From the NCBI GenBank assembly GCA_019448385.1, contig JAGTXO010000040.1:186001-250000 (forward strand): 64,000 nucleotides of DNA, given 5' to 3'. Both the position numbers and the translations under genes were made by a program. A model generated the notes under the pieces. It was given only the letters and a program-made list of their open reading frames with translations. It was not told the DNA's origin and made no database searches. The stretch comes from Diacronema lutheri (taxonomy: Eukaryota > Haptophyta > Pavlovophyceae > Pavlovales > Pavlovaceae). Each line of letters begins with the position of its first letter. Positions within the stretch are counted from its first letter, which is position 1. Shown here in pieces: positions 13,288-49,080 of this stretch.

Positions 13288-13387
13288 CGCTGGCCAGCGA
13301 GCCCGCGCCCAACCGCCGCTTCCCTTCCAACAACCAGAAAAAAAAAAGAGAAAAAAGAGAAAAAAAAGGAAAAGAAAAGAAAAAGGT

Positions 13388-13847: not shown

Positions 13848-14145
13848 CTATATACGGCGCGGTCCGGGCTGGTCCGGCCAGTGTAAGGCTGAGAGTACGA
13901 CCCGGGTCGTACAATCAATGGTTAAAAGCCAGCCAATGAGCGCTCGAGGGGTCGGGGCGAGGCTTATGACGAGCCTAGGACCGAGACACCCTCCTGACCG
14001 GCCGATTTGGAGTAGAATTCGGGGTCGAGCGGGCGCGGCGGACGGAGGGCCCGAGCCGGGCCGACGGAGGGTCCGACCCCGGAATGCGGGCGACCGGAAG
14101 GGCTTGGGTGATTTACGCCTAGTAGAATAGAATGGCGGATTCCGG
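13848..14145. other. Non-coding stretch with an 18-bp perfect palindrome
   Basis: No gene seen. GTACGACCCGGGTCGTAC at 13895-13912 is a perfect palindrome. Further in are two diverged copies of a GGACGGAGGGCCCGAG-like segment. The palindrome's flank (TCGTACTCTCA on the minus strand) reappears at the far end of the second copy of the dispersed repeat near 49083. This stretch may therefore be the tail of that repeat. Confidence 0.5.
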
Positions 14146-15730: not shown

Positions 15731-15850
15731 GCGGCGCCCGCGGAGGACTGGTCCGTTGGCGCGCAAACCGTGGGCGAAAGGGCGCGAAGCCAACGGCCGT
15801 CCGCGCACGTTCAAACGCGCGCATACGGGTGGCATCCTCCCACCTTCGGC

Positions 15851-16163
15851 GCCGCTTTCTAAAAGGGTGTAGGGTGTAGGGTGTAGGATGCAAAACAAGC
15901 CCTCCCCACATTTGGGCCCGACGTCATTCCTTCTTCGAAGCCGTGACGTTACTCACATACGAGTACCTTTACTTAGTGTAGGATGGATCTATTCTCTAAG
16001 TATTTGCATAGTGTAGGGTGTAGGATACGTACGGTTATGAAAGTCCCATAGGGGGGAGAAGGAATGACGCTGTGACGAAAGAAGGAATGACGTCGGGCCC
16101 AAATGTGGGGAGGGCTTGGTTTGCATCCTACACCCTACACCCTACACCCTTTTAGAAAGCGGC
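15851..16163. mobile_element. 313-bp foldback/MITE-like element
   Basis: Inverted arms of about 85 bp, 15851-15935 and 16079-16163, differ at about one base (ATGCAAAACAAGCC versus ATGCAAACCAAGCC). Each arm begins GCCGCTTTCTAAAAGGGTGT and contains three GTGTAGG units. The loop is clearly AT-richer than the host DNA. There is no ORF. The structure is that of a non-autonomous inverted-repeat transposon. I could not define a convincing target-site duplication. Confidence 0.8.
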
Positions 16164-16319
16164 GGCGCCTCGGAGCATGGCGGCTCGACAGCATGGCGCC
16201 TCGACAGCATGGCGTCGTCCAGCGTCACGCCGCGTCGTGGTCCTGCCGCTCCTCCGTGGCGCACGGATGGCGCTCCTCCGTGACGCAGCCGAACGACGCC
16301 GCGGCGTCACGGCCCGGGC

Positions 16320-17900
16320 GCAGTCGCCATCCTGGACGCCACGGATGGCGAACCGGTCGACGAGATCCGGCACGAGGACGTCTGCGCCATCGCCACGCAG
16401 CTCGACTGCGTCTACACGGGGCTCACGGGCTCGATGTTTGGCACCAAGTGGAACGTGTGCGGGGTCATGCTCCCGAAGCGCGCCGAGCAGCGGCCGCAGC
16501 CCGGCTCGGACGCCTTCGCCTCGTACAGCGTGGCCGCCTGGGCCGACACGTTCGACTCCACGGGGCTGTACGTGCCCGACGAGCGCGAGCGCGCGGCGGC
16601 GCTCGCGGCGGTGGCCGGTCTGCGCACGGCGCGCGCGCCGGCCGGGCCGGGCGGGCGCGAGCTCGCGCGCGCGCAGGGCTACGATCGCGCCGAGCAGGCT
16701 GCGAGCGCGGCGGCGGCGCGCGCGGCGATGGCCGAGACCGGCCAGCAGCGCGCGCTCCACGGCGCGGTCGTCGACTCGGCGCTGCGCGGCGTGGGCGACC
16801 GGCTGCACTTTTGCGACGCGCCGGGCGGCACGGGCAAGACGTTCGTCGAGCGCGCCATCATCGCCGCCGTGCGCGCGGATGGGCACGCGGTCGTCGTGTG
16901 CGCGTCCTCGGGCGTCGCCGCCACGCTGCTGCCCGACGGCCGCACCTTCCACTCGACCTTCAAGGTGCCCGTCGGCGCCGACTCGGACGGGCAAGCCGTT
17001 CAATGGCGTGCCGCGCTCCGAGCGCGGGCGCTCCGTGGCCGCCGCGGCGAATGATCGTGGGGGACGAGGCGCCGATGCAGAAGCGGGGCCGCCTCGACTC
17101 GCTCGATCGGTGTTTGCGCGACGTGACGGGCGTCGACGAGCGCTTCGGCGGCAAGACGTTGCTGCTCGCCGGCGACTTTTGCCAGTGCTTGCCGGTGGTG
17201 CGGCGCGGCTCGCGCGCGCAGATCGTGCGCTCCTGCCTCGAGTACTCGGCATCGTGGCAGCACGATCGGCCGTACGCCTTGGTCGAGAACTCTCGCGCCT
17301 CGAACGCGGCGCGCGACACGGGCGACGCGCTCGGCGCGGGCGAGTGGGCGAAGCTGCCGCGCAGCCTCGGCGACGGCGCCTTTCCCGCGGCGGTGCCGCC
17401 TGCGGGGGCCATGCCCGGCGCATTCCCGCTCGATCCCGTGCAGCTGCCCGAGGCGTCTCGGCCTACCCGGCGGAGCTCGTAGCCACTCGCCTCCTCTCGC
17501 TCGGCGAGGGGCTGTGCAGCGGCACGCGGCTGGTCGTGCGCGGCGTGCGCGCCGGCGGCCGGCTGCTCGAGTGCGCGCGCCCCGGCGCGGCCGCCGGGCG
17601 CGACAGCACCGTGCTCATCGCGCGCATCGACCACCACTCGCCCGACGAGGGCACGTTCGCGTTTGCATGGCTGCACCGCCAGTTCCCGGTGCGGCCGGCG
17701 TAACAAGGCGCAGGGTCAAGCGCTCGGGTGCGCGGGCGTGTGGCTCGCCGAGCCGTGCTTCACGCACGGCCAGCTCTACGTGGCCGCTTCGCGCGTCGGG
17801 CACGCGTCGCGCATCCGCTTTGCGCTTGGCCCGGACCATGTGACGCGCACCGTCGTCTTCAAAGAGGTGCTCCGCGCGGTCAGCGGTGGCGAGGCGGCGG
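16320..17900 (+). pseudogene. Helitron-type Pif1 helicase relic
   Basis: The motifs appear in Helitron helicase order. Walker A is FCDAPGGTGKTFVERAI (about 16806-16855), followed by ASSGVAATLL and GRTFHSTFKVPV. Walker B is GDEAPM (about 17061), then LDRCLRDV, then LLAGDFCQCLPVV (about 17161-17200). Later come GLCSGTRLVVRG, then RQFPV, then NKAQGQALG and HGQLYVAASRV (about 17707-17800). The segments sit in three forward frames with at least four switches, and the RQFPV-to-NKAQGQ junction lacks a few residues, so I read it as a decayed gene rather than a spliced one. No HUH Rep domain was found upstream. An Ala/Gly-rich tail follows to about 18400. A host PIF1 is less likely, because the FGG..LLAGDF.Q.LPVV..G.R style is Helitron-like. 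Confidence 0.72.
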
Positions 17901-19318: not shown

Positions 19319-22300
19319 GTGCCGCGACGCCCTTTTTCAAAGGCGGGTGCCGCGCTGATTCGTCATCGGCCACCATCCATCTGGCCCTCTAAAGCCGGTT
19401 TGCGCGTGGGCGCCCGTCCGGTGCGAGAAGCGGCTCGCGTCCTCGCGCGGGGCGCCTCCGCGCCAGGCGCCCGGCGCGCGCTCGTCTTGCCGCGCCACCA
19501 CGCTGATCTGCGCCCAACCCTCGCTCGCCTATTCCCCCGTCGTTTCTGCTGCGTAGCCCGCAACAGCGCGCGCATGACGCGTGCACGGCGCAGCGCCTGG
19601 AGCAACTTCCGAGTCGTCGGCCGGCAGCCTGTGGGGGGCGCGTTCATCGGCCCGATGTGGCCGGTGAGAGTGCCCGACGTGCCGCGTGGTGAGCGCCTGC
19701 ACGGCTCGCCGGGTTCGGCGCGTTCCCAGTCGGCCTCTCTCCGACCCGCCGTAAACCTTGCGTGCGCACCCCGCACACCCGGCGCTGCGCGGCGCGGCGC
19801 AGGCGTGAAAAACGAGGGCAACGCGTGCTACGTGAACGCCCTCGCGCAATCGCTCGTCGCCTTGAACGTGCTCCGTCCGATGCCCCGCTCCGCTTCGCGC
19901 CGTGCGGGAAGAGTCGAGAAGGCGCTTTTTCGGGACTTTGGCACGCTGCTCGAGGACACCGAGGCGCCGGCACAGCTGTGTCTTGTGTCCGTCGTCGACG
20001 TCATCTTGGGCCGTGGCACGCGAGGGACGCAGCAGGACGCTGCTGAGTTCTTCCAGATGCTACTCGGCCGAGTGCCCGGGCTCGCTGCTGCCTTCGAAGA
20101 CGACAGACGCGTAGTGCTCGAGCCGATCGCTGTGGCCTCGAGCGAGCGCGGTGAGGGCATCGCCATCCTCGTCAGCATTGGCGGCGATGCGGCGCGCACG
20201 CTCGCACACGCTCTGGGGGGCGTCGCTGGGCCGCCGCAGGGTGGCAGCCCGGACGCGTGCCGCTCGGACGTGCTCATGCCAGCCAGCATTGCCGTCGAGG
20301 TGCCGCGCACGACGCGCGGCAATGGCTCGCAGTGCAAGAACAAGCACGCGTTCGTGTGCGCGCCGCGGCTGCTACTCGGCGGGCGCGACTACCTCCTCGT
20401 CGCCGCCGTCGTGCACTTGGGCGAGGAGTCGACGAGCGGGCACCTTGTCGCCATCGTGCTCCGCAACGGGGCTTGGTTTCTGTGCGACGACGACAACGTG
20501 CGGCGGCGCGCACGGCCGCTTGGCGCCGCGACCGGCGGTTGATCGCAGCCGCAGCCGCCCCGTCCTCCCGCGCGGCACGCGCGCGTGGCCTGAAAGCTCG
20601 CGCCGCGCGCCTGCCGCACGCACGCGCGTTGCCCGCGCAGATGCACAACTTGTCTCAGTCCGACGCGCTGGCGTGGGCAAGTGGTGCGAGCATGCTCTTC
20701 TACAGCCGGCTCGACGCGGAACCGTTGGACCCGGCGCTGGGCTCAGCGTCACCGCCGTCGGCCGCATCGCCTGCGTGGCCGAGCTCGGCGCCCGACGCGC
20801 CGACCCTGTCGGCAGCCTGGTCGCGGGTGCGGCAGATGGCAGCGGTGCCAACAGATGCGACGATCGGCATCGCGGAGACGGCTGCAGACACCTCTGCGGC
20901 GGCGATCGGCCCAGCTGCGTGCGAGGCCCGCCAAGTTGTCTCCGCGACGCGCGCATTGCCAATGGCGGTGAGTGCCTCGCACGCGCACGCCGTCCGCTGT
21001 CCACAGCGTGGCGCCCGGCGCTTGCGTTCGCGCCAGGTAAAGTTTGCGCGTATAGCGTGCAGCACCCTCACGCATCCCCTACGCCTCCCGCCCGCCCGAC
21101 CTCTTGCCCGCCGGCCGCGCGCAGGACCAGCGCACGCCAATTGTTGGGCGCGGCCAAATCTGGGCATGCGCAAATTTTGAGCCGGCAGCGGAGGGCGGGG
21201 ATGCGCAGCACAACTGGCGCAAGCGCACGTGGTGCCCGCAGCACGAGCAGCGCGAGCAGCGCGAGCAGCGCGAGCAGCGCGAGCAGCGCGAGCAGCGCGA
21301 GCAGCGCGAGCAGCGCGAGCAGCGCGTGCAGCGCGTGCAGCGCGAGCAGCGCGAGCAGCGCGAGCAGCCCTGGCAGCCAGCGCGGCCAGGCCTCGGCGCG
21401 GGCGCTGGCGTTCGGCCCGCTGCTCTGCCGCCGAGCCATCCGCGCGCCAGCATGCGCGCGAGCAACCGCTTCGAGCCGCTCTTGTTGGCCGAGGCGGACG
21501 TGCCCGCCACCGAGCCCGCCGCCGCCCAGCCCGCCGCCCAGCCCGCCGCCGAGCCCGCCGCCAAGCCAGCCGCTGCCAAGCCCACCGCCGAGCCCGCCGC
21601 CCAGTCCACGGCCCAGCCTCCCACCGTGCCTGACGCCAAGCCAGCCGACCAGCCCGCCGTCAAATGCGCTGCCGCCAAGCGCGCTGACGACCGCATTGCT
21701 GCCGCTGAGGTAGGCGCCGTCGCCGCCACGCTTGCCGCCGCCACCGAGCCTGGCGGCGTTGCCGAGCTCGCCGCCGCCGCCGACGAGGGCTGCAGGGCGC
21801 GTGCCGACGCGCTCGCCAAGCGCGAGACCCGCCGCGCGCTCCACCGCGAGCAGCTTTTTCGCGAGGACAAGCGCGCGGCCGGCCGCCTGATCGAGCAGTG
21901 CGCGCTGGGCTCTGCGGACGATGCAGCGCGCGCGCGCGCCCTGCTCGAGCGCGTCAAGGCGCGTGGCCACGCGCTGCCTCCGCACCTGCTGCGGTCGCTG
22001 CGCGACCTCGCGTCGCCGCGGCTCGCGCTCGCCGCTGAGGCGGCGGGCGTGCTCGCCGCGTCCGAGATGGGCGAGGCGGACGCACCTGCGGAGGCGCGCG
22101 CGCTACTCATGCACGCCGAGGCCGTGGGCGCCCACCTGCCCGCGCACACAGAGCTCGCGCTGCGCCGCGCCTGCATCCCCACCGCCGAGCAGGCGGAGCT
22201 GCTCGCGACTGCGCGCGAGCTGCTCGCGCCGCGCGACCCCGAAGGCTCGGTGGCTCCGGCGGGCGCGCGTGCCGAGTGCGACGGCGCCGCGCTCGGCACT

Positions 22301-24417
22301 CGCGCGCGCGAGCTCCTCTCGCGACTCGACGAGGCGCACCTCGACGTGCAGCCCTGCATTGCGCGGCAACTGCGCCGGCTCGCCGCCACCGAGCCAGACG
22401 CAAGTTCGAGCGCTGCGCTCGCCGCCACGCCCGGCACCGCCGGTCGCGCGGCCGCCGAGCCGCGGCGCGCGTGGCGCCCGCGCGGGTGGCGTCTCGCGGT
22501 AGGCGCAAAGGGTGCGCGCGCGCGCGCGCGCGCCGCGGCTGCTCCGCTCGACACGGCGCCGCCCGCGGCGGCCGGCGCCGTCCCGCCGCTCGAGCCGCAG
22601 CCCGAGCGCCGTGCAGCCGACGCCGCGGCCGCCGCAGCGGCGCCGGCGGCCGGCGACGACGGCGTGGCACGCGCGCTCGCAGCCGCAGCGCGCGGCGACG
22701 GCCTCGACGGCGTCGATGGCGCCGACGACCTCGTTTGCGCGCCGTGCGACCGAGGCTGCGCGCACGCACGCGACGGCGGCTGCTGCGAGCCTGCCGCGCG
22801 CAGCTCGCCCGACCAGTGCCCGCGCGCACCGCCGCGGCGCGCACGGCGGGCGGCAAAGCGCGCGCGCGACCGGCTGCGGAGATCAATCGACAGGTCAGAG
22901 CGGGCTGTCGGCCGCCGATTGCGTGGCGGCGACGCGCGCCGCGAGCGCAAGCGCAGGTGCGCGACGGGCGGCCAGCACGCACCGCAGCCGCTCCGCCGCG
23001 CGAGTCGCAGCCCGCCGTCGCGCACCGATCGGCCCTCGGCCGAGCATGCCGCCGAGCCTGCCGCCGAGCCCGACAGCCCCCACCGCCGCCCGTGTGCCGG
23101 TGCCGCCGTCGCCGTCGCCACTGTCCGGTGCGCCGTCGGCATCTTCGCGAGTGTCGTCGCCGCCTCTGCCGTCCGGGCCGCCATTGCTCCGGCCGCTCGC
23201 CCGTCTGCAGCCACCGCCTTTTGGCTCGTCGCCGTGTGCTCGGCCGCCGCATGGGCCGCCTTCGCCTCCGCCGCCCGCCCGACCGCCGCCTTGGCCGCGC
23301 CGCAGCCTGCCACGCAATCGTCGGCCGCCGAGCCCACCGCCGCCGCGCCAGCCCCCGCCCAGCCCGCCGCTGCCGAGCCAGCCGCTGCCCAGCCCGCCGC
23401 GGCCGAGCCCGCCGTGGCGCAGCGCGACGTCCAGTCCGCCGCCCCGGCGCTGCTCGCGTGGGCGGGCGACGCGGCTGCGCTCCGGCTGGCCGATGCCGCC
23501 GCGCGCGCCGGCATCCCGCAGGCAGAGGTGGACTGCATTGCGGGCGGCGACATGCTCGCCTCCACTGTGGACGCTTGCTGCGAGGTCGTGCTGCGCGTGC
23601 ACGGGCAGGCCGGCGAAGGGCGCGTCTGCCACGTACCGCTTGCCGCTCAGCCCGCGGTGTTCCAGGACGGCGCCGAGCGCGCCGCGCTGCTGCACCGCCT
23701 GCACAGCGAGGCGACGACGCAGGCGGTCATCGGCATGTGGAGCCCGCCGGGCGGGCGCGGCGGTGCGGGCAGTGACGATGGCACGCCGCCCGCCTCCGGC
23801 CATTTCACCGCGTTGCGCCTCGTGCGCGTCGCGCGCGCGGGCGAGCATCGCTACGACGCGGTGCTTGTCGACACGCTCGCGTCGCCGAGCAGGCAGGCGC
23901 TCAAGCGTGCCAGGTCGATAACCGCCACGCTGCACGCGGCGGGCCTCGACGTCTTGCCCGTGCGCCGCGCGCGGCTGCTCGACAACGCGGCGCAGCGTGG
24001 CGCGACGTGCGGCCTCGCCGTGGTGGGCGCGCTCAACGACGCCGCGCTCGCTGCGGCGGGCGGTGCATCCGCGCCGCGCACGTTCAGCGTGGCGGACATG
24101 TACGCTGTTGGCGAGCACCTCCGCGTCGCGTTGACTGGCGCGGTCAGCGGGCGTGCGCCGAGCGGCGCCTGCGCCGGGGCGGGCGCGGTGCGCGGCGGGG
24201 GCAGCCGCGATCGCGCTGCCGAAGCGCCGCGGCAGACGCGCGGCGCCAAGGCCGCCGCAGACGCCGCCGCCGCTGCCGCCGTTCCGCCGCCGCCGCCACC
24301 TCCGCCGCCCGCGCTGGGCGCCGCCGCCGCCACCACCACCGCCGCTGCCGCTGCTGCCGCCGCCGTGGCCGCGCCGCCACCGCCGCCACCGCCGCCGCGT
24401 GCCGGCGACGAGGGCGA

Positions 24418-24463
<46 letters not shown>

Positions 24464-27400
24464 GCCGCGCGCACGTTCTTGAAGCTCGCGCCCAGGGCGC
24501 GCGCGGCCGCCTCGGCGCGTGAGGCGTTGCGCGCCGCGTGTGCGCGCGCGGACGCGGCGGCGTCGTCACACGCGTCGGCGCCGCACGCGCCCGCCGGTGC
24601 GCGCCGCCGGCGGCGCGCGGGCGCAGGCGAGCTGGCGCTCGCGGCTGCGCGCGCGCTCGCCTCGACGGAGCACGGCGATTTGACGGACGACGCGCTCGAG
24701 GCCGCCGTCGAGCAGGAGCTGGGCGACGAGCGCGGCCAACTGCTGCTGTGCACGCGGGGCGCAGCGGCGCAAAGGCCCGCGCTTTGCCGGCTCCTGAAGC
24801 ACGCGTGCGCGTCGGCGCGCGCGGCGAAGCGCGCGCAATTCACGGTGTTCGTCGTGCGCGCGGCCACGCGCGGCGAGCGGGGGGGCGCCGCCGCGAGGCG
24901 CGTGGACTCGGTGGTCGAGCTGTCGTGCGCGCTGCACGAAAAGGCGGGCGCGCTCGGCGGCCTCCAGAGCGTCTGTGTGCGTGGCTTCGCCCTCGAGCGC
25001 CGCCGGACACTCGACGGTGGCGCCGAGGCCGGCGCGTCCGCCATCGGCCAGGACGAGCAGGTCGAGGCAGAGGCGGGCGAGGCGTGCGTCGCCGGCGTGA
25101 CGATGGCCAAGCAGCTGCGTCAGTTTGCCGAGCAAGCTGCCCGCGACGACGTGCTCTTCCGCGTCGCCGTGTCCGAGGCCGACGCCCACGCCCGGCTGGC
25201 GCGCGTTGCGGGTGACGATGTCGGCGCGTACAGCGTCGTGCTCGCAGTCGCCGGGCTCGTCTGGCTGGCCAAGGCCGACGAGGTTGCGCCGGCGGCCGCC
25301 CGGTCCGCCGCCGCGCCGCCCGCCGCCCCGCCTGCTGCCGCCACGTCCGCCGACGCCGAGCGCGACGCCTCGCCTTCCGACCGCCTGCGCGCGCTGACGC
25401 TCGCCGTGCGAGTCGCGCTCGCGCGCGGCGTGCTGCGCCACCTCCTCGCCGACGCGTCGCCGGGCGCGTCCGCGACCGCTGGCGGTAGTTGCGCGACGCC
25501 CGTCGAGGCGGCCACGTCCGCCGCCGCGCCGCCCGCCACGGGCGTCGTGACGAGTGGCGTCGCGGCGGGCGCTGTGGCGGCCGCACCGGCTGCTGCGGGC
25601 GGTGCGACGGCGGGTGCATCGCCCATCACGCGGCCGGCGAAGCGCGCGCGGCGCACGCTCACCGCCGCTCCAGCCGCCTCGGCCGTTGCGGCCGCTGGAG
25701 GCGCACGCGCGGGCGCACGCGGCGCGGCCGGCGCGCCTCGCGCGCGCGCCGCGCGCGCGCCGGCCGAGTACGTCTGGCTTGCCATCGCGCGCCGGATGCT
25801 GGCGGCGCGACACGCGGCGGCCGCGGGCGGCGACTTTGTCGCGTCGTGCGTCGCCGCGATGCAGGCCGAGTACGGCGACGGCTGTGCCGTCGTCGTCGGC
25901 GACGCGCCTGATGACGCCTTGGTCGAGGCTGCGGCGGCGGCGCTGCTCGAGGGCAAGCACGCGGCGGTGAGCCTCGGCTGCGTCGACCGGCCGGCGGTGC
26001 TCGTCGTGCAGCGCGCCGTGGACGCGCCCACGTCGCGCGTGCACGGGTGGTGCGCGCACGCGGCGGGCGCCGCCGAGTTTGACGAGGGCGCCGCGCACGG
26101 CGTGTTCAACGCGATCGTCGAGCGCGCGTGGGCGCTGCGTCCGGACCCGGCTGACGGCAGCCCGCCGCCCACGCGCACGTGGGAGGTCGAGCAAATCGCT
26201 GGCGACGCGCCCGACCAGGCGGGCGTGGCCGCGCTGCGCGTGCTCTACGCGCTCGTCGCGGCGCACGGCCGCTACCGCTCGGCCGCCGCGCTCTTTGGCG
26301 CGCTCGCGCAGCTGCACGCGCCCGACGCCGCCGGCGCGCGCGCGGAGGTCGTCGCGGCGGCGTGCGCGGTGCCGCACGGCGCGCGGCCGGGCGCCGCGCC
26401 GGCGGCCGCGCGGGACGACGCGAGGGAGCGCGCATGGGAGGGCGCTCAGATCGCCGCGCTCGCCGTCGGCGCGGACGCTGCGCGCAGGCGTGTCGCGCCC
26501 GTGCGCGCGCTCGTCGACGCGCTCGGCACGCCACCGACCTCGGCGATCACGGGCGGGCCGGCGGTCCGGCTCGCGGGCGCGGGCGACGGCGGCCACGGTG
26601 CACGGTGGGTGGGCGGGCAGGCGGCGACGCCCGCCGAGCAGCTGCCGAGGGAGCTGCTGCGCGCCTACCACGAGGCGGTGCTGTGCGTCACGCCCGGCAG
26701 CCTCCAGCTCGGCCCGGCGGCGCTCGACGCGGTCACGCGGCCGCGCGAAAACGACACGCTGGAAGGCCTCCTCGCGCGCGTCAGCTGGCAGTGCGGCGCG
26801 AGGGCGAGCACGTGCGCCATGCTCGCCACGTTTTCCGAGCAGGCGGGCACCGGCTCGCGCGTCGCGCTCAAGGCCCTCCGCACGAGCTCCGACCTGGCCG
26901 GGCTGACGGCGGCTGCGGTCGGGCAGCAGGCGCCGCAGACGCCGCCGCCGCCGCTGCTCGTGATGCTCGGCCGCTGCCCCAGCCCGCTCGTCGGCGGCGG
27001 CCTCTTCCCGCCCGACCGCGCGACGGGCGAGCCGGCGGTGCACGCGGCGACGTCCGAGCTCGCCGTCGAGCTGCTGCGCGACGCGCGCGCGCTGGCCGGC
27101 ACGGACGGGCGGCTCGTCGTGCTGTGCCTCGAGGCGTCCAACCCGCTCTGGTTCTGCCCCAAGGTGCGCGAGCTCGAGCTGCCGCGGACGCGGTCGGACG
27201 GCGTGCGCGCGTCCGGCTGCACCTGCCCTGCGACGTGCAGCGATGCGCGCGGCGCGGCGGGTGGCGCTGCCCGCGGCGCATCGACGCGGCCGGCGGCGCG
27301 CGCGATCAACAAGGCGGTGCTCGACCACTTCGTCGCGCTTTTCGGCCGCGAGGGCTTCGCGACCTTTGAGTTTGCGGGCGGCGGCGAGGCGAGCTGGCTG

Positions 27401-30400
27401 TGCGACAGCGCGGCCGGCAAGACGACCGTCGCGGCGTGCGCGTCGCTCCCGCCGCGCATGGGCGATGGGCAGCTGGCCATCCGGCGGCACACGCTCGGCA
27501 CGGGCGCCGACGCGCCGGCGCACGCCGTCGTCTCGCTCCGCGTCGCGCACGTGAGCCACGCCATCCGCCGCGCGGCGGACGACGGCGGCGCGCGCGCCGA
27601 GCGGATGGCGCGCGCCGCGCGCGCGTTTTGCGATGTGGCGGCCGCGCTGCGCGTCGACGCGATCCTGGCGGAGGTGCCCGAGGACCGCCCGACGGGCACG
27701 CCCTTCCTTGGCGGGCTGCTCGAGTTTTGGAACAAACGCCACGGGAGCTCGACGGCGCCAGCCACGCTCGCGCTCGGAGACGTGCGCGAGGTGGCCAAGC
27801 GGACGGCCGACGCAGCGGCCGGCCGAGCGGACGAGGTCCCTGCGGCTGGCCGTCCGCAGGTCGCGGCGCGCGCGTGCGCTGGCGCGATTGGCGGCGGCGC
27901 GGGCGCGGCGGGCGCCTCGGACGCTGCGCCCCGTGCACTGGCGGGCGCGTCGGGTGCGCGCACGGACGGCGGCCCTGCCGACGCACCGCGCCAGCTGGAG
28001 AGCCGCTACGGCGAGGCGAGCAAGCTCGACCTACCCCAAGATTCCACTACGGGCTGCGTCCTCGACGCTCGCGAGGCCCAGGACCGCGCGCGCGTGCCTG
28101 CTGCGCCCGACGGCACAGCGCTGCGCCGCGTGCTCGACGCCGTCGGCGCGGGCGCGCCCGCGCAGCGCAGCCCGCGCTGGCACGACGAGCGATGGGAGGA
28201 GGTCACGGGCAGCAAGGTTGGCGACGTCGTGAACGACAACGCCGGCGTCGCGCACGAGACGCTCACCGACGAGTACGTGCACCGGCGGCGGCGCGAGGTG
28301 CGGACCAAGGCGACGACCGCGGGCATCCTCGGCGAGGCCGTCGCGCTGCGCAAGCTGGCGGCCGCGTACGGCATCACCGTCGTGTGCAACCTGCCGATGG
28401 TGCGTGCGGACCCGCACGACAAGAGCGCGCCGTTCGCCTTCTCGCCGGACGGGCTCGCCATCCTCCCCGAAGACAACGAGCAGGTCCTCGTCGAGGTGAA
28501 GACGCTCACCAAGGCGGACGCCAAGGCGCACGAGGACGGGCCGCCGCAGCCGCACCGCGATCAGCTGCAGCTCGGCATGCACGTCCTCGGCGTGCGCAAA
28601 GCGCTCTACGTGCAGTACCTCAGGCACGAGGACCGGATCGTCGTGCACGTCGTGACGCGCGGCGTCGGCTGGCTTGCATTCGCGCAGCCGAGGGTGCAGG
28701 CCTTCTGGGCGCGCGTCGTCGAGCGGCGCGCGCGGCTCGAGCGCGCGCGCGCCGACCACCCGGCTGCGAGCCGGCGGCACCGGCGGCAGCAGACGCCGGC
28801 CGGGCCGCCGCTCGTGCTCGCGCTGGACGGGCGCATCCCCGCCGCGCGCGCCGCCGCGCTGCACGCCGTCGCGCACGGCACCGCGAGCGCGGCGGCGGTG
28901 ACGGCGGCGGCGGCGACGGGCGACGCGACGGCGTTGCAAGACGCGATCGCGGCGCTGCGCGCGCCCGTCGGCAATGCGGCGATCGACAGCGCAGCGCGTG
29001 CGGAGGGCGCGGCCGTCGAGCGGGCGATCGCGTACCTCGGGCAGCCGGCGGGCGACGCCGCCGCCCGCGGCACGGCCGAGGCGGCCGAGGAGGAGAGGAC
29101 GGTCGACGCCGACATCTGCGCGTTGCTGCACCAGCTCGGCGCGAGCGTGGCGCACGTGCACGTCGAGGACGCGGATTGCGTCACGCGTGAGCACTGGGGC
29201 GAGGCGGTGCTCGCTGCAGCGGACGACCCGTCGAGCGCCCCCGCCATTTCGAGCGTCATCGTCGCGCACATCGTGCGCCTCGCCGGCTTTGGCGTCGAGC
29301 TCCCGCAGTCGATTCGCGTCGCCCCCAGCACGGCCGACTGGCACGAGGGCTGGCTCGACGTGCAGTGCGTGCTGCTGCGCACGCGCCGGCGCGGGCGGCG
29401 CGACGACGACTTTGTGGCCGTCGTCAGGCGCGGTGGGCGCTGGTTTGCGTGCGAGCCCGGCCGCGCGCGGCGGCTGCAGTGGCGGTCGGTCCTACGCCGC
29501 GCGCGCGGCGGCGTCGACGGGACCGGCGAGGAGGCGTTCGCGATCGTCTACGTGCGGCGCGGCGACGCGGCCGGCGACGCGGCTGGCGACGCGCAGGCCG
29601 CACGGGCGCGCGGCGGGCGCGCGCGCAGGCGCACGCGCGGCGGCACGCGCAAGCGCAAGCGCGGCGCCTCCGCCGGGCTCGAGGCGGCCGCGCCCGCCGG
29701 CGCGCCGGCTGCCGCGCCCGCCGGCGCGCCGGCGGGCGCTGCTCACCGCCCGCCCGCCATGCGCGCCACGGTCGCCGCGCGCACCACGCGCTCTGTGACC
29801 GACGCGCTGCACTCGGCGCCTGCCGCCACGGTTGCACCTGTCTTCGACTGGCGCGCCGGCCGCCCGCCCCCCGCCGCTCGAGCCCGCCACCCGCGGCCGC
29901 GTGGGCGCGCGCCACCGGGCAAGGCCTGGGACAGCGTCTCGGGTGCGTGGGCGGACAAGCCGACTGGTGCTGCCGTCGCCGCCGCGCCGCCGCCGCTGCC
30001 GCCCGCCGCCGCGCCGCCGCCCGCCGCCGCGCCGCCGCCCGCCGTCGCGCCGCCGCCCGCCGCCGCGCCGCCGCCCGCCGCCGCGCCGCCGCCGCCGCCG
30101 CCACCGGCGGCGCTCGGCCGCCGGCAGCACGTCGGCGCGGGCGGCAGCGCGGCGGGCCGGCGGCTCGCGGCCATCGCACGGCGGCAGCGCGGCGTGCGCG
30201 CGCCGCCGCCCGCCGCGCGCTTCCTCGCCACGCTGCCGCCACCGCCACGCGACGGCCTCGCGCGCACGAGCAAGCAGGCGCGCGCGAGGCGCAACGCGGA
30301 CGGACGGCCGGCGCACGCGCGCGCGGCCAACGCGCGCGCCTTCTACCGCGGCGTGGAGCTCGGCGTGCACGCGACGCGCGCCATCGTCGACGCGCGCCAC

Positions 30401-33400
30401 GCCGACCTGCCGCAGGCCGTCTTCGTGGCGGAGGCGCGGGCGATCGTCGCGCGCTCCGCCGGCGGCGGCGCGCTGCTCGCGCCGGACGACGTGCGCGACC
30501 TGTGCGACGCGCAGACGGACGCCGATCGCGCTGCGATCTGGGCGTCGGTGGGCGCGCACGAGGCGACGCGCATCTTCGCGCTCGTCACGCGCAACGCGAG
30601 CTTGGCGGGCGCGGCGCTGCTCGTGCTGCACACGCCGGCGGGCGCGCCGGCGCGCGCGCTCGGGCTCCTGGCGACGCGCTCGCGCGCGCCGTCGACGGGC
30701 GCGCCGCGCGACGCGCACAGGGCGCTGGTGCAGCGGTTGGACGTGCTGATGGACGCGATCGCCGCGGCGCGAGGCGCGTCGCCGCTCGAGCTCGAGCTCG
30801 CGCTCGCGCCCGAGCCGCAGAGCGCGTGCAACGCGCGTGCGGCCGCGCTGCTCTGCCTGCAGGCCGTCGCGGACGCGAGCGGCCGTCCCGCCGCTGAGGA
30901 CGCGCTGGCCGCGCTCGACGACGCGCGCGGCATCGACCGGCACTGCCACGCCGTCCGGCAGCAGATCGAGGCGAAGCTCGCGTGGCGGCGCGCCGACGGC
31001 GCCGTCGGCGTTGACGGCGCCGACGGCGCGCCCGCGCTCGCGCCTGCCGCCGCACCGCCGGCGTGCGCGCCGGCGCACGCTGCCGGCGAGGCGGCGGTCG
31101 ACCAGGCGATCGTCACGCGGGTGCGCGACGCGCTGCGCGCGTGGGCGACGACTGGCACCGCGCCCAGCGCGGCGGTGCTCGACGACGCCTGCGCCGCGTA
31201 CACGGCCCGCGCACGCGCGCGCAAGGACGCGCGCACGGCGCTGGGCCCGACGCGCGCGGCCGAGCTGCTCGCCGCGGCCGCGCGCGGCGGAGCCGACGGG
31301 GCGGATGCCGCGCGCGCGCTGCTCGGCGGCACGCCGCGCCTGCTCGTCGTGCTCCTCTGCGTGCCCGTCGCCGCGCCGTCCGGCGAGCCGCCGCGCCCGG
31401 TCGGGCTGCTCGTCGCCGACCGGCCGACGGACGACTCGCGCCCGGCCGCGCTCGTGCGCTACGACTTTGCGCCGCTCGACGCGGACGTGGCCGTCGCGGT
31501 CGGCGCGCATGCCGTCGCGCTGGCCAGTGCGATCTGGCCGCTGCTCGCGGCCGAGGGGGAGCCGCGGCCATCGCCCGTCGTGCGCTCGCAGCCGCGCGGC
31601 GGCGACGATGGCGCGCGTGCGCTCGCAACGTTCGCGTGCCTCGACGCGCTGATGACCGCCAGCGTCGGCGCGCACGGCCTCGCGGGCGGCGCGGGCATGC
31701 TGCCCGCGCTGGTCGCGCGAGGCGCCGCGGCCGCCCAGCGCGAGCGGCAGCTGCGCGCGGCCGCCGAGAGGCTGGGCGGCACGGTCGCTGGGTGGCCGGA
31801 CACGGGCGCGAGCGCGGCGGGCGCGAGCGTCGACGAGGAGGCGCGCACGTACGAGGTCGAGGCGGTCGTCGACGAGCGCCGCAAGGCGGGCAAGAAGGTG
31901 ACGTTCCAGTTCCGGATCAGGTGGCGGGGCTACGACGAGAGCGCCGACACGTGGGAGCCTGAGGCCAACGTGAGCAGCGACCTCGTCGCCCAGTTCCGCA
32001 AGACGCGCGACGAGCAGAAGCGGCGCGCGGGCGTATCGGGCAGCGGCAGCGGCGGCGCGGGCGCGGCGTCGGCATTGGCGTCGGCGCCGCTTCGCGCGCA
32101 CGGCGAGTCGGGCGCCGCGGGCAAGCGCGCCGCGGCGGGTGCCGCCGCGAGCGCGCGCGACGCCGCGGGCGCGCGCGCGCCGAGCGTTCCCCGCGCGCGC
32201 GGCGTCGAGCGCGCGCGCGTGGACGAGCCCGCTGCGCCGAGCGCGCGCGCCGCCGGCGGCGCGACGGCGCGCACGCGCGTCAGCGTGCTCCCGGGCTTCG
32301 TGGTCAAGCGCTCGACGCTCAACGCGGGGCCGCAGGCGGTGACGGCGCAGCCCGGTGCGCGGAAGGAGCTGCGGCGCATCGCGGCGGCCGTGCACAGGCT
32401 CACGACACAGGCGTACCGCGTCATCAACAAGGTGGTGCGCGACGAGGCTGCGGTGGCGAGCGCGCAGGCCGTCGGCGCGGCGTCGGGCGGCCCGTCGACC
32501 AGCGTGCACACGTCGACCACGATGGACAAGGGAACCGTCCGTGCGATCTTCTCGGCCATCGGCTGGCACAAGGACGAGAGCACGTACGGTGCAGCGCCCC
32601 GAGGCAAGCCCGCCGAGCAAGCCGCCGCGCAGACCAAGGCGGCGACGGCGCGCGCCGTCGGCGAGATGGCCGAGGGCGTCCAGCCCGTCTGCGCGGTGGG
32701 CCTCACGGAGATCCTCGAGGCGGAGGCGACGCAGGTGTCCACCGCGTGCCTGATGCATCCATCGCGCGTCGTGAACGGGCTGCTCCGCGACGTCGTCCGC
32801 GCGGCAGTCGAGCGCGACGAGGCGCTCGTCGCGCTGCCCGAGATGCAGCGAAACGCGCGCGTGCGCGAGCTGTGCGAGCGGCTGCTGCGCGGCGACGTGG
32901 AGGGCGCGCGCGTCGGCTGCCCCGCCGCGCTCGACCGCCACCTGCCCGACATGGTCCTCCACAAGATCGACTACAAGTGCACGCCCACGAAAAGGTGGAA
33001 CTACGACCGGCACACGACGCGCTACTTCCTCGTGCAGATCCGCACCCTGCAGCACGTGGCCGAGGGGCAGGCGCTGCTCTGCCGGCTCGCGCACATCCAC
33101 ACGCAGCTGACCGGACGGCCGCCGCGGTACAATGTGGCGCCGCTGCGCACGCACAATGTGCGCGCGAGGCGCGGCTGCCGCTACCGCCGCCGAGCGCCCA
33201 AGCGCGCGCGCCGCCGCCGTGCGCGCCGCCCCGCGGCCAGGTTGGTCACGCGCCCGCGCGCTCGCGCGCCGCGCGCTGCGCGCAGGTGCCGCGCAACGTG
33301 CGCCTCACCGCGAACGCCATCTGGGAGACGCTCCCGGACGACGAGCGCAAGGAGCTGCGCGCGCGGCTCAAGGCGCTGGACCTGCGCGACCACGATGGCG

Positions 33401-35010
33401 AGCCGATCAAGTGGACAGGCACAAACGGCAACACCCCGCCGATGTCGGACGTGCGCGTCAGGTACGCGGTCTTTGCGACGCGCTTCGACATCTCCAACCG
33501 CGTCTTCGACTACGCCGGGCGCGAGCGGCCGCCGGCCGATCTGCCGTGGCACGCGCGGCGCTCGTGGGTTGGCCTCGCGCCGCTGCCGCGCGTGCCGCTC
33601 CCGGGCCGGCAGCCCGTCAAGTCGGTGGTGACAGATGGCGTCGCCGTGCACGCCGTCGGGACCGTCCTCGTGCCGAAGGCGCAGGCGCCGGCCGGCGGCT
33701 CGGGCGTCCTGCACCGCTGGCGCCGGCCGGACGGGCGCATCGCCGTCGCGCTCGGCTCCGAGCTGCGGCGGGCGATCGACGTCGAGGCGGCGGTCGTCGT
33801 CGCGGCCGACCCGAACATGGGCAACATCACCACCTACTCTGCGCACGTCGGGCGGGCGGCCGTCTGGCGGCAGTTCACGCAGCGCGCGCGCGCGCGCGCC
33901 GCGGGCTTTGCGCGCGAGACGGCCAAGACCAACGCGGCGCGGCGGCGCGTGCGCACCGACGGGCGCGGCGAGGAGTTCAGCGTGGAGGCGGACGAGGCGC
34001 GGCTTGGCGAGGCGCACAGCGCCAAGGTGCTCGACGCGGGCAAATACATCGCCTTCCACCGCGAGAGCGCGCGGGTGCGCGAGCGCGCCGCCGAGCACGT
34101 GTACGACGCGCCGGCGCGCCGGAAGGAGCGCTGGCGGCGCGACAGCGGCGGGCGGTCCAACGCGGCGCGCGTCGCCGAGGCGCTCATCGCGGCGCACTGT
34201 GTCGACGGCGTGACGCGCGACCGGCTGCTCGTGTGCGTGGGCAAGTGGCTGCGCGACCACAAGGGCGCGCAGCCCAAGGGCGCGCCGCCCGCCTTCCAGG
34301 TGGGGCTGCTGCGCGAGCTGCGGCGGCGCGGCGTCGCGGCCGTCTTCGTGCCCGAGCCGTACACGTCGATGCACTGCTCGATGCCGCGGCTCGCCAAGGG
34401 CGGCAGGCTGCAGCGCTGCGGCGCGGAGCTCGCGCAGAACCCGCGCCTGCCCGTGGCAAAGGGCGGCACGCGCACGGTGCACGCGCTCGTCATCTGCCCG
34501 GCGTGCAACGGCGGCAAGAAGCCCGTGCACCGCGACTACAACGCCGCGCGCAACATCTTCTACGACGTGCACGACATGGCGGCGCACGCGGCCGGGCGCG
34601 ACACCACGTCGACGCCTGAGCGCTTTGCCCTCGTGCTCGCCTGGTGGGCGCGCGGCGAGGTGTGGGAGCGTGAGGAGCGCATGGTGCACGGCGAGGGCGA
34701 CGACTGCGACGACGAGTGCGACGGCGACGACGAGGGCGACGACGAGGGCGACGACGACGACGACGACGATGGCAGCGGCGACGGCGGCGGCGGCGAGGGC
34801 GACGGCGACGGCGACGGCGACGGAGGCGGCGGCGGCGACGACGACGATGACGGCGGGGGAGGCGGCGGCGGCGACGGCGGTGGCGACGACGGCGGCGGGC
34901 GCGGCGGCGGTGGCGGCGGCGGCTCTCGCGCCCGCACCCCCGCCCGCGGAGCTGCCAGCGCCAGTGCCGGCGGCGGCAGCGCGCGCGGGCCGAAGCGCGG
35001 CCGGCGTTGA
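19319..35010 (+). CDS. Giant multidomain protein: USP, C48-like proteases, YqaJ nuclease, chromodomain, Fanzor
   Basis: Exons 19319-20497, 20641-21036, 21125-33157 and 33286-35010 join in phase 0 at three GT-AG introns and give up to 5,110 residues. The start is uncertain. The frame has an ATG at 19319, but an acceptor-like CGCAG just before the USP Cys box (19802) suggests more 5-prime exons. In order: USP; EQR repeat and Ala/Pro/Lys-rich linker; helical Ala-rich region; Ulp1-like protease with His, Asp and Cys; poly-Ala/Pro linker; several degenerate protease-like segments; YqaJ-type nuclease; second USP-like strand; chromodomain; Fanzor with RuvC and zinc ribbon; acidic/Gly tail ending PKRGRR, a likely nuclear signal. 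Each module is listed separately. Fanzor genes usually ride on eukaryotic transposons, so I infer the core or cargo protein of a large mobile element in a TE island. No transposase or capsid gene is recognised. A model splitting this into several genes remains possible. Confidence 0.7.
19803..20730 (+). other. USP (peptidase C19) domain of the giant protein
   Basis: Cys box GVKNEGNACYVNALAQSL (catalytic Cys codon 19826), GTQQDAAEFFQMLL, and His box SGHLVAIVLRNGAWFLCDDD (His 20441, Asp 20486-20494). After the intron comes ALAWASGASMLFYSRL, matching the usual USP ending (AYMLFY.R). The domain spans about 260 residues, a compact USP, with all three catalytic elements present. A deubiquitinase acting on ubiquitin or a ubiquitin-like protein is the family expectation. 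The substrate is unknown. Confidence 0.85.
20498..20640 (+). other. Intron 1 of the giant gene
   Basis: GT (GTGCGG) to CAG, phase 0, 143 bp. Joining ...FLCDDDN to MHNLSQSDALAWASG restores the canonical C-terminal strand of a USP, which neither unspliced frame does. Confidence 0.75.
21037..21124 (+). other. Intron 2 of the giant gene, linking USP to the long ORF
   Basis: Donor CAG|GTAAAG, a pyrimidine-rich stretch (CCTCCCGCCCGCCCGACCTC) and acceptor GCGCAG, phase 0, 88 bp. It joins the USP exon in frame to the 12-kb open frame. Without splicing, the USP frame stops at 21180. Confidence 0.6.
21239..21372 (+). repeat. GAGCAGCGC trinucleotide-codon repeat (EQR)n
   Basis: About 14 tandem copies of the 9-mer GAGCAGCGC (two read GTGCAGCGC) encode Glu-Gln-Arg repeats in the giant frame, likely a charged helix. 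The next in-frame ATG is 21452. Confidence 0.85.
23444..24140 (+). other. Ulp1/C48-like cysteine protease module
   Basis: The order His-Asp-Cys fits the Ulp1/adenain clan, not USP or OTU. SGHFTALRLVRV carries His (codon 23801), YDAVLVDTLAS carries Asp (23870), and NAAQRGATCGLAVVGALND carries Cys (24008), resembling the Ulp1 Q..G.DCG.F box. The spacing (about 23 residues His-Asp, 46 Asp-Cys) is reasonable. Ulp1-like proteases are frequent partners of eukaryotic transposon proteins. Confidence 0.65.
25765..26400 (+). other. Degenerate C48-like segment 2
   Basis: Predicted strand-helix pattern like the C48 module (AAVSLGCVDRPAVLVVQRAV, then NAIVERAWAL), ending in GDAPDQAGVAALRVLYALVA (about 26200-26260). 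There the catalytic Cys position appears to be Ala. The homology is my visual judgement and needs profile comparison. Confidence 0.35.
28150..28760 (+). other. YqaJ/lambda-exonuclease-type nuclease module
   Basis: SPRWHDERWEEVTGSKVGDV opens the fold. FSPDGLAIL (Asp 28448), VLVEVKTL (Glu 28493, Lys 28499) and HRDQLQLGMHVLG (Gln 28562) followed by ALYVQYL reproduce the D-(E-x-K)-Q signature of YqaJ/lambda-exonuclease PD-(D/E)XK enzymes. All core residues are present, so an active DNA exonuclease or nickase is plausible. This family is common in phages, large DNA viruses and some eukaryotic transposons. Confidence 0.8.
29100..29570 (+). other. Degenerate USP-like C-terminal segment
   Basis: RRDDDFVAVVRRGGRWFACEP resembles the His box of the upstream USP (GHLVAIVLRNGAWFLCDDD), with Asp/Phe in place of Gly-His. 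It lies in a segment that also contains HIVRLAGFGVELP and WLDVQCVLLRTRR. Read as a non-catalytic duplicate of the USP fold. Tentative. Confidence 0.35.
30560..30900 (+). other. Degenerate C48-like segment 3
   Basis: AGAALLVLHTPAGAPARALG, then VQRLDVLMDAIAAARG, then LALAPEPQSACNARAAALLC. This is the same strand-helix-Q..x.C..AL order as the active module, but without a recognisable His/Asp pair. Tentative homology. Confidence 0.35.
31320..31690 (+). other. Degenerate C48-like segment 4
   Basis: RLLVVLLCVPVAAPSGE, then RPVGLLVADRP, ALVRYDFAPLD and SQPRGGDDGARALATFACL mimic the active module. The Cys of the DCG box is apparently Gly (DDGARAL). It directly precedes the chromodomain. Tentative. 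Confidence 0.35.
31847..32020 (+). other. Chromodomain of the giant protein
   Basis: TYEVEAVVDERRKAGKKVTF, then FRIRWRGYDESADTWEPEAN, then LVAQFRKTRDE. This is the classic chromodomain: Y.VE.I..., a short loop, then (Y/F).I.W.GY.....TWEP..N and a C-terminal helix. Aromatic-cage positions Tyr, Trp and Trp are present, so it may bind methylated histone tails and steer the protein or its element to chromatin. Confidence 0.9.
32290..34640 (+). other. Fanzor (eukaryotic TnpB-like) nuclease module
   Basis: The N-terminal part includes RWNYDRHTTRYFLVQIRTLQ, then NVAPLRTHN, spliced to VPRNVRLTANAIW, matching the Fanzor PLR...VP hallmark. The RuvC-I Asp is in VVVAADPNMGNITTY (codon 33808). The canonical RuvC-II strand reads LLVCVGKW with no Glu, but VFVPEPYTSMHCS carries a Glu (34354), consistent with the relocated glutamate reported for Fanzors. 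A zinc ribbon follows (HCS, QRCG, ICPAC), then the RuvC-III Asp in VHRDYNAARNIF (34534). All expected catalytic parts are present. The family is an RNA-guided DNA endonuclease. The guide RNA would be expected at or beyond the gene's 3-prime end. Confidence 0.88.
33158..33285 (+). other. Intron 3, inside the Fanzor module
   Basis: GTGCGC...GCGCAG, phase 0, 128 bp. It joins NVAPLRTHN to VPRNVRLTANAIW. Not a multiple of three, so splicing is required to continue the Fanzor frame. Confidence 0.85.
34680..35007 (+). other. Acidic and Gly-rich C-terminal tail
   Basis: GAC/GAG/GGC-only sequence encodes (D/G/E)n, then SRARTPARGAASASAGGGSA and a basic GPKRGRR end. It is probably disordered. The last residues could serve as a nuclear localisation signal. 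Confidence 0.7.
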
Positions 35011-35418
35011 CGCACGGCCGAGCCGCGCAGCGGTCGACGCTTTGCGGGCTCTGCCCAGGTCGCGCGCGGCTGGCGACGCGTGCCGCGCGCGGCACGACCG
35101 TGCACGCCGCCACCCGTGGCCGAGCGCGCCGCACCAGCCGGCCCGCTCCAACCGCCGTGCGGATCACGGACGCTCGCTACGGCTCGTCGGCGCGCGTCAC
35201 CTGCGCCGGCGGCCACGGCGCCGTCTGCTCCGGCCTCGTCGCGAGCAGCCCGACCGCTGCTCGCCGCCCGCACGCCGCCGCAGCAACGCTGCGCGTCGTG
35301 CTCCCCCGCTCGCCAAACGCGAAGAGCTCCCTCACAAGGACGTCCTTCCGAACGGCCCGCGCTGCACTCGGGGCGCGATCGTGCCCCTGATCGGATTTGG
35401 CTTGACCATCTATACATT
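35011..35418. other. Gap between Fanzor stop and HDAC stop
   Basis: A 408-bp convergent intergenic stretch without a trustworthy ORF. It must contain the 3-prime UTRs of both genes and, if the Fanzor gene belongs to a mobile element, that element's right end and its guide-RNA region. The last 35 bp (GATTTGGCTTGACCATCTAT onward) are AT-richer. I found no obvious terminal repeat. Confidence 0.5.
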
Positions 35419-36029
35419 TCAGTGACTGCGCGTGCCAAAGTGCGCGGCGGGCTTGTGTTCGCGCCCGTGGTTGGTCGGCGCCGGCAGCAGCGGCCGGCCG
35501 ACGAGCGCGCGCACGTGCGCGGCGCAGTTATCGGCGAGCGAGGACGGCGAGATGCCGAGCACGCCCGCCTCGGTCTCGAAGTGGCCGTACCCGCCCTCGA
35601 GCACGGAGACGACGCGCCCCTCGCACACCTGCGCGCTCGTGCGCGCGTGCGCGCGGCGCGCGCGCGCGCGTGAGCGGCGCGCGGCGGTGAGCGGCGCGCG
35701 GCGGTGAGCGGCGTGCGAGGCGTGCAGCACAGGGGAGGGGGCGGATGGGCCGCACTCTGACGCAAGTCCCACAGGCCCTTTGATGGCGAGCCAATGAGCC
35801 TGGCACGGCCCTCGCGGTCGGTGCACGCACCCGCCGCGCACCGCGCGCTGGAGACGAGGCGGTCGCGCACCGCGCGCTGGGCGTCCGCACGACTGGGCGG
35901 CACACCTGGTTTGCGACTGCCAGAATCTGCTCAGTGAGCCACGAAAAATCGTAGGGTTCGAGGTCAATGCCCTGACGCGGGAAAAGAGGGTACGCGCGGC
36001 GGTGGGCAGGCGATGTTTGGCACCGCCAT

Positions 36030-36062
<33 letters not shown>

Positions 36063-36621
36063 GGGGGGGGGGGGGGGAGGGGGTTTGGAAGGGGGTATGG
36101 TTGTTGGGCGCCGTGCTCACCTGGCAGTAATGCTCGTCGGTGAAGAGGCGCGAGTTGCCCACGTCGCGCCGTCCGGCGTCGAAGCCGGCCGAGATCAGGA
36201 TCAGGTCGGGCGATGCTGCGCGCAGCGCGGGCAACACGCGCGTCGCGAAAGCCTGCCGGTACTGCACGCGCCCGCACGGCAGCGCGAGGGGCTCGGACGG
36301 GCCAGGCCGCACGCGCCCGCCGCGGTGCTGCTGCTGTTGCTGCTGTTGCTGCTGCTGTTGCTGCTGAGCGTGTGCGGCAGACGGCGTGGGCTCGACGGGC
36401 ACAACGCCGCCGCCGCCGCCGCCGCCGCCGCCGCAGCCGCCGCCGCAGCCGCCGCCGCAACCGCCGCCGTTGGCTACCGCGCTCGCCGTGCCGCCCGCCG
36501 CACGCGCGCCCGGTGCACCCGACACACCGGCAGAGCCCGTCGAGCGCGGAGTGTCCGCCTCGCCGCCGGGCTGCGAGCCGCTGCCGCCACCCGCTCGCGC
36601 ACCGTCGGCTGGGAGCAGACG

Positions 36622-36700
<79 letters not shown>

Positions 36701-49048: not shown

Positions 49049-49080
<32 letters not shown>

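Follow-up and report, generated by a model that had tools for sequence, protein, structure and literature searches.

A 64,000-nt stretch of the haptophyte Diacronema lutheri genome (C17:186001-250000; hereafter the window, in whose own coordinates positions are given) carries one copy of a mobile element that is very large and was active recently. The evidence below makes it probable that this is a giant DNA transposon that carries a Fanzor nuclease and encodes a Pif1-type helicase, a USP protease and a giant gene that unites the Fanzor with a RecE/lambda-type (YqaJ) exonuclease and a chromodomain, with a product of ~4,476 aa from the ATG at 21452, or longer. All genome-wide searches were made in the D. 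lutheri assembly of 43,492,796 bp in 103 contigs. For strain NIVA-4/92, passages of the published genome report give 103 contigs, 43,502,671 bp, a longest contig of 3.042 Mb and a GC content of 73.25%, with repeats making up 22.9% of the genome, long terminal repeat (LTR) elements and long interspersed nuclear elements as the chief annotated types, and an annotation made with BRAKER2 and RNA-seq (PMC8379373).

Limits, copies and size classes of the element

Other copies align with the window up to 35415 on the right and to ~13849 on the left, with unrelated flanks beyond. The exact right-end 18-mer occurs 219 times in the genome and the exact left-end 24-mer 210 times, while their reversed controls are absent. 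Shared ends, differing flanks and hundreds of exact end sequences thus bear out the suggestion, made in an earlier note on this DNA, that its genes are part of a giant mobile element. Pairing the first 100 listed places of each exact end yielded 67 complete left-right pairs with a mean length of 28.1 kb, falling into discrete length classes: 13 of ~21.5 kb, 7 of ~26 kb, 9 of ~29 kb, 35 of 30.5-32.5 kb and 3 of other sizes. Extrapolated to the whole genome (0.67 x 219 x 28 kb), the element would occupy ~4.1 Mb, or 9-10% of the genome, and would make up a large share of the D. lutheri repeats.

The 31-kb and 26-kb classes were each read through one copy, C9b in the former case. Compared with the window, C9b is 99.8% identical over the left 2.4 kb, 91-96% over Pif1 and 90% over the USP region up to window position 21000; there follow 10.3 kb with low-complexity similarity only, as against 2.4 kb in the window, before identity resumes at 98% from 23430. 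Among the 20 copies first fetched, eight were of the window type over the stretch taken, ten matched in the USP region only (~90%, at a different distance), and two (L020 and L022, both cut by contig ends) gave no match to the USP region. Copies of the 21-kb class seem to be a shortened variant, one that may depend on the 31-kb class.

End flanks were tabulated with repeated flanks counted once, after removal of one spurious right-end row (L010) of 36 and of right ends with <20 flank bases (L043, which reads TATAA, L080, L095 and L096). TATATA precedes GGCG in 29 of 30 different left ends, with a C ahead of it in 24. Of the right ends whose flank spans 20 bases or more, 34 of 35 read CATCTATAC, and one additional right end, located at a contig end, reads CATCTATAA; TATA is present at both ends of the element. 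A consistent target duplication was not seen in the 20 copies fetched at both ends (three right flanks were cut by contig ends); a 13-bp direct repeat flanks one copy. Contigs C1, C5, C6, C10, C12 (start), C43 (end), C32 and C49 (start) have an edge no more than a few bases away from where a copy of the element ends. Seven such ends were fetched and inspected by eye with telomeres in mind; none had a telomere-like repeat, so that assembly breaks at the element repeat are the likelier cause.

The giant exonuclease-chromodomain-Fanzor frame

The earlier note had described a 12-kb open frame with YqaJ and chromodomain motifs. Indeed, the stop-to-stop frame at 21056-33631 (+) comprises 4,191 aa, whereas in 200 order-2 Markov sequences derived from the same 12.6 kb the longest six-frame open reading frame averaged 1,176 aa and never exceeded 2,403 aa. 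Third-position GC is 0.92 over 23430-33157, with matching periodicity along the frame. This 4,191-codon frame is real coding sequence, and the profile matches given below place both domains in it. Within it, 21125-21451 is weakly coding except for a 9-bp repeat. When the YqaJ stretch was sought across the genome (150 scored of 236 candidates), all 150 scored copies were stop-free inside the match, and the surrounding frame reached at least 4,000 aa in 109 and at least 5,000 aa in 7, the longest being 6,136 aa. In the 26-kb copy, a single frame of 5,339 aa covers the stretch that C9b splits over two frames. Splicing of the four exons in Table 1 gives a fusion frame of 5,119 aa, or 5,002 aa from the ATG at 19574.

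We assign the exonuclease to the YqaJ family because of its PHROGs match (Table 1), an NCBIfam lambda-exonuclease match (7.2e-6; 26.2 bits, far below the model cut-off of 68.05) and the genome search with Pfam YqaJ (150 scored of 203 candidates), in which this copy scored 23.2 bits against a cut-off of 22 and all 150 scored matches lay over the cut-off; run on the window proteins, Pfam YqaJ gave 0.016, under the cut-off, and it stayed under the cut-off in a second Pfam scan as well. The domain holds E, PDG, ExK and Q motifs, which we take to be the catalytic residues. Its stretch matched 41 phage records, the strongest match being 4e-6 with 29% identity; the depositors had labelled the matched features as tail, tape-measure or hypothetical proteins. 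The chromodomain, beginning at residue 4109 of the fusion, combines its profile match with aromatic Y, W and Y, presumably the usual aromatic cage.

Just downstream of the frame, as the earlier note had stated, lies the RuvC and zinc-ribbon part of a Fanzor. It matched PF07282 at 27.3 bits (cut-off 26.3), and at 31.3 bits when the window copy was scored in the genome search (150 scored of 306 candidates). The RuvC D-E-D residues and C4 zinc ribbon are present (D, YTSxxC, C4, RD), and third-position GC of the exon is 0.97. All 76 Fanzor exons scored, from 452 candidates, are 98-100% identical and stop-free. NCBIfam TnpB reached 13.9 bits only (cut-off 100), and a PDB search gave chance-level matches only, including Cas12f at 0.31. 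A second Fanzor lineage in the genome (L100; frame 1,681 aa) matched at 8e-7 over RuvC-II, the zinc ribbon and RuvC-III, and the score of 136 between the whole Fanzor and this paralogue was reached by 0 of 300 shuffles. Searches elsewhere with the Fanzor returned two matches, one to an ENA contig and one to D. lutheri.

The junction between giant exon and Fanzor exon is given by the annotated D. lutheri model P0002 (KFE25_006464), which reads PLRTHN followed directly by VPRNVRLTANAIWETL, exactly as removal of intron 3 predicts, and then leaves the Fanzor for SAM-domain sequence. No in-frame Met occurs between fusion residues 4059 and 4334. This gap, the reading frame and P0002 make it likely that the Fanzor N-terminal part and exon 4 belong together; the N-terminal part by itself gave no significant match. 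Since the frame is uninterrupted and intron 3 is found in an independent gene model, exonuclease, chromodomain and Fanzor would be parts of one product.

A Ulp1-like protease had likewise been proposed for this gene, in which an H..D..Q..C order can be recognised by eye. Pfam gave no Ulp1/C48 match at E up to 10 in ten pieces, nor did a two-sequence profile against PDB. PF02902 had nine matches over the genome, the window not among them, and a single-sequence AlphaFold2 model of the stretch had a mean pLDDT of 47.9, too low for use. Profile searches confirm the USP, chromodomain, exonuclease and zinc ribbon of the earlier note, but not the Ulp1 domain.

Of the 150 PF07282 candidates scored in the genome search, 31 rows exceed the copies of this element in score, 14 with 43.9-44.5 bits, and lie in frames of up to 1,779 aa. 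Such high-scoring rows (e.g., C9:378667, C25:226266, C75:1073490, C71:952894; L100) are other Fanzor lineages. Three of these Fanzors (on C75, C71 and C78) have a Pif1 match 7-12 kb upstream, and the one on C25 has the element's left end ~24 kb upstream; these four loci perhaps represent a sister element family.

Table 1 Features of the element copy, in window coordinates
Feature	Position	Strand	Basis
Whole mobile element, 21-kb class	13849-35415 (21,567 bp)	+	ends TATATACGGCG...GACCATCTATAC
Palindrome near left end	13890-13917	.	DNA fold of 13849-13950, z -1.87
Inverted repeat, 98%	15847-16167 (arms 15847-15935, 16079-16167)	.	
Pif1-type helicase gene pieces, two frames	16434-17479	+	Pfam PIF1 4.2e-19, 2.6e-23
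USP exon 1 (first ATG to intron 1)	19574-20497	+	Pfam UCH 7.3e-15
Intron 1, GT-AG, phase 0	20498-20640	+	junction also in P0005, P0006
USP exon 2 (ALAWASGASMLFYSRL)	20641-20967	+	open frame
Putative intron 2, GTGAGT..CAG, phase 0; would join USP to giant frame	20968-21124	+	sequence only; in no gene model seen
Giant exon	21125-33157	+	first in-frame ATG 21452
Ulp1-like H..D..Q..C order, by eye	23447-24142	+	profiles do not confirm
RecE/lambda-type (YqaJ) exonuclease domain	28154-28729	+	PHROGs RecE-like exonuclease 9.3e-16
Chromodomain	31850-32002	+	Pfam 5.1e-12; PDB 2dnt (CDYL) 4.3e-11
Fanzor N-terminal part, same frame as chromodomain	32264-33157	+	last part joined to exon 4 in P0002
Intron 3, GT-AG, phase 0	33158-33285	+	same junction (THN-VPRN) in P0002
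Fanzor RuvC and zinc-ribbon exon (exon 4), D/G-rich tail, stop	33286-35010	+	Pfam PF07282 4e-6
Palindrome near right end	35370-35387	.	DNA fold of 35340-35416, z -0.74, not unusual

USP and Pif1 genes beside the giant frame

The Pif1 gene lies upstream of the giant frame on the same strand. In the 31-kb copy it matches both PIF1 (1.8e-24) and Pif1_2B (6.2e-13) and has a longer N-terminal region; the window gene is ~300 bp shorter, across the 2B domain and the N-terminal stretch, and Pfam did not find a 2B domain in it. The USP placed just upstream of the giant frame by the earlier note is confirmed by its UCH match and has the Cys and His boxes within one domain, the His box resembling that of USP46 (1.8e-5). 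A search with it gave five matches: its own frame in the window, one ENA contig, two proteins of D. lutheri and, weakly, a foreign USP (P0007, 3.4e-4). The annotated D. lutheri models P0005 and P0006 read CDDYN followed directly by IYNVPESDALAW, which corresponds to the 31-kb-type version of intron 1. Exon 2 is open and followed by a GTGAGT donor in all 18 copies (of 20 fetched) that hold the region. Of the three phase-0 GT-AG introns in the earlier note, all exist as sequence, and introns 1 and 3 recur in gene models; intron 2 is used by none of the public D. lutheri gene models seen.

The USP was found in 13 of 13 complete copies of the 21-kb class, 33 of 35 of the 31-kb class, 2 of 9 of the 29-kb class, 0 of 7 of the 26-kb class and 1 of 3 others; since the USP genome search scored 141 of 237 candidates, diverged copies may have been overlooked. 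One 26-kb copy, read between Pif1 and the giant frame, had no USP by DNA or protein comparison (tblastn best E 7.8). Its rarity in the 26-kb and 29-kb classes argues that the USP is dispensable for the family and not the obligatory part supposed earlier; it is probably optional cargo beside a constant exonuclease-chromodomain-Fanzor frame. The distance from USP to YqaJ is 16 kb in the 31-kb class versus 8 kb in the 21-kb class. Relative to the 31-kb copy, the USP domain has indels of 6 and 3 nt in exon 1 and none in exon 2. Exon 1 (19800-20497) differs by 12.2% and intron 1 by 4.9%, without third-position bias, a pattern reflecting either fast USP divergence or a recombination mosaic.

How far the giant protein extends can be read in other ways. 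In the 21-kb class, all four exons might be spliced to one protein of ~5,000 residues beginning with the USP, close to the single product of up to ~5,100 residues that the earlier note envisaged. The GTGAGT donor at 20968, the CAG acceptor ending at 21124, the phase and the open frame all permit such a splice; exon 2 and its donor are conserved as described, and every complete 21-kb copy has the USP. However, gene models do not use intron 2, homology between the 21-kb and 31-kb types ends at 21000, 32 bp past the putative donor, the family does not require the USP, and the giant frame has its own ATG after the weakly coding 21125-21451. We therefore regard a USP-first fusion as possible but doubtful: the spliced frame exists, whereas its USP-to-giant-frame splice lacks support. 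Conversely, the long frame could be a compact arrangement in which separate promoters yield separate exonuclease, chromodomain-Fanzor and USP proteins. Met residues at fusion positions 4044 and 4059, just ahead of the chromodomain, could serve as a start, and the N-terminal modules vary among the classes. Yet separate genes would not need the frame of at least 4,000 aa that 109 of 150 copies keep, and a Fanzor lacking the chromodomain would also have to forgo its N-terminal part, because the next stretch up to residue 4334 offers no Met; this arrangement is unlikely.

Several observations weigh against the favoured reading, a transposon whose giant gene joins exonuclease, chromodomain and Fanzor. 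The frame falls short of 4,000 aa in 41 of the 150 scored YqaJ copies. The Fanzor N-terminal part is not significantly similar to the paralogue (its score is reached by 125 of 500 shuffles); the same holds for the opening 170 residues of exon 4 (205 of 500) and for the junction stretch (247 of 500). For the 3' region, RNA folding gave nothing unusual (z -0.77), and Rfam returned no match. Between the window and one 31-kb copy, the two USP exons have ratios of nonsynonymous to synonymous substitution rates of 1.08 and 1.67, and Pif1 has one of 1.14, values of about one or above that do not show purifying selection on protease and helicase. P0005 and P0006 break off soon after exon 2 begins and are fused to other sequence, probably that of the host, and these two models and P0002 may be partly ab initio; P0001 and P0004, being unspliced frame calls, were not used as evidence. 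Sequence searches returned no relative of the whole arrangement elsewhere, and none of the giant region among 1,436 scored. Finally, the basis of the mechanism proposed below is the set of domains together with existing knowledge of TnpB and Fanzor. As a side observation, element exons in P0002, P0005 and P0006 are all connected with exons of another, probably host, origin; the element exons may have been exonised, or the models may be chimeric.

Only 3 bp separate the end of the element from the stop codon of a frame for a histone deacetylase (35416-37221, -). Just left of the element, 9549-13297 repeats a 239-bp unit 15.7 times in tandem, the copies being 98% alike. Further right lie a kinesin gene (42827-47608, +; 7.2e-49) and, at 48527-49057, an inverted fragment of the element's left part, ~88% similar.

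Mode of movement and comparison with known systems

No DDE, HUH or recombinase domain of a known transposase was matched in the frames scanned, a subset of all frames that also underlies the other domain negatives of this section, and scans for HUH and tyrosine-recombinase motifs gave nothing convincing. A Helitron-type element moving by rolling circle, with its Rep protein supplied in trans, would fit the Pif1 helicase, the absence of a consistent target duplication and the palindromes near both ends, and Fanzor1 proteins are reported from green-alga Helitron2 elements in passages of PMC3627910. We nevertheless consider it rather improbable. Helitron_like_N matched at one genome locus, on C63, and in no copy of the element; none of 11 HUH-like strings in the scanned frames of the window and one 31-kb copy was followed by the Tyr motif sought, leaving no HUH Rep within the element; and the ends do not follow the 5'-TC..CTRR-3' rule given in those same passages (PMC3627910). 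The C63 match (C63:35738-36019, 8.3e-23) is the sole one found in the genome. Helicase and lambda-type exonuclease also occur in large DNA viruses, which could point to remains of an integrated giant virus or a Polinton. Here, Pfam returned no PolB or other DNA polymerase, no rve integrase and no capsid in the frames scanned, and IMG/VR scans were without a relative, making a viral or Polinton descent very improbable indeed. A near-match DNA search of phages with the left end, made with viral origin in mind, gave no hit.

Guide RNA derives from an element's flank; resection of ends for recombination is the task of lambda/RecE exonucleases, and a chromodomain of this type recognises methylated histone tails. 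For a giant Fanzor-carrying transposon, we propose that the Fanzor, with a guide RNA that starts at the right end and runs on into the flank, would cut sites lacking the element; the exonuclease would then resect and the Pif1 helicase unwind, and repair would copy the element into the cut site. The chromodomain could tether the giant protein to chromatin with methylated histones, and the USP, where present, might protect the element or repair factors against ubiquitin-dependent loss. Fusion into one protein would make cut, resection and copying occur in place. An all-in-one protein, as the earlier note imagined, is likely for exonuclease, chromodomain and Fanzor, but unproven for the USP and unsupported for Ulp1; we infer its joint chromatin-binding and cutting activity from its domains. 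A related proposal, set out in excerpts of PMC10432273, is that TnpB helps its insertion sequence copy itself when a guided cut is repaired.

In this young and abundant element a Fanzor shares its frame with an exonuclease of recombination and a chromatin reader, so that a possible natural role of Fanzors, guided cuts that drive copying through repair, can be put to a direct test. Should the single protein prove real, it would be a transposon protein of very large size and a natural guided nuclease aimed at chromatin. More speculatively, the element might represent a transposon superfamily that lacks a canonical transposase, moves by RNA-guided copying through a chromatin-tethered Fanzor-RecE protein and Pif1, and fills about a tenth of the genome, a possibility we advance tentatively.

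Within the portions of open-licence literature searched, there was no report combining YqaJ, transposon and chromodomain, and no Fanzor-chromodomain fusion. Phage RecE/lambda exonuclease (YqaJ) recombinases share most of the exonuclease domain (phrog_434, TIGR03033); unlike them, the exonuclease described here belongs to a eukaryotic transposon, stands in frame with a chromodomain and Fanzor, and has no recognised annealase partner. Chromodomain LTR retrotransposons, which PMC12477816 also names, likewise have a chromodomain inside a transposon polyprotein; in contrast to these, no reverse transcriptase or integrase was matched here in the frames scanned. Giant eukaryotic DNA transposons (Polinton/Maverick, giant KDZ, EnSpm) also exceed 20 kb and carry accessory enzymes, as parts of PMC6431247 and PMC12477816 describe, whereas the present element gave no DDE transposase, polymerase or capsid match and has an RNA-guided nuclease in its main frame. 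A likeness may also be drawn to a published alga DNA transposon with a TnpB-like protein: as far as the excerpted description goes, it too has a Fanzor-type protein and palindromes near both ends, and the published motif D-X(125,275)-[TS][TS]XX-[C4]-X(5,50)-RD fits the Fanzor described here. Unlike that transposon, the D. lutheri element has no Rep found in its copies, measures 21-31 kb, and bears its Fanzor as the C-terminus of a giant exonuclease-chromodomain frame.

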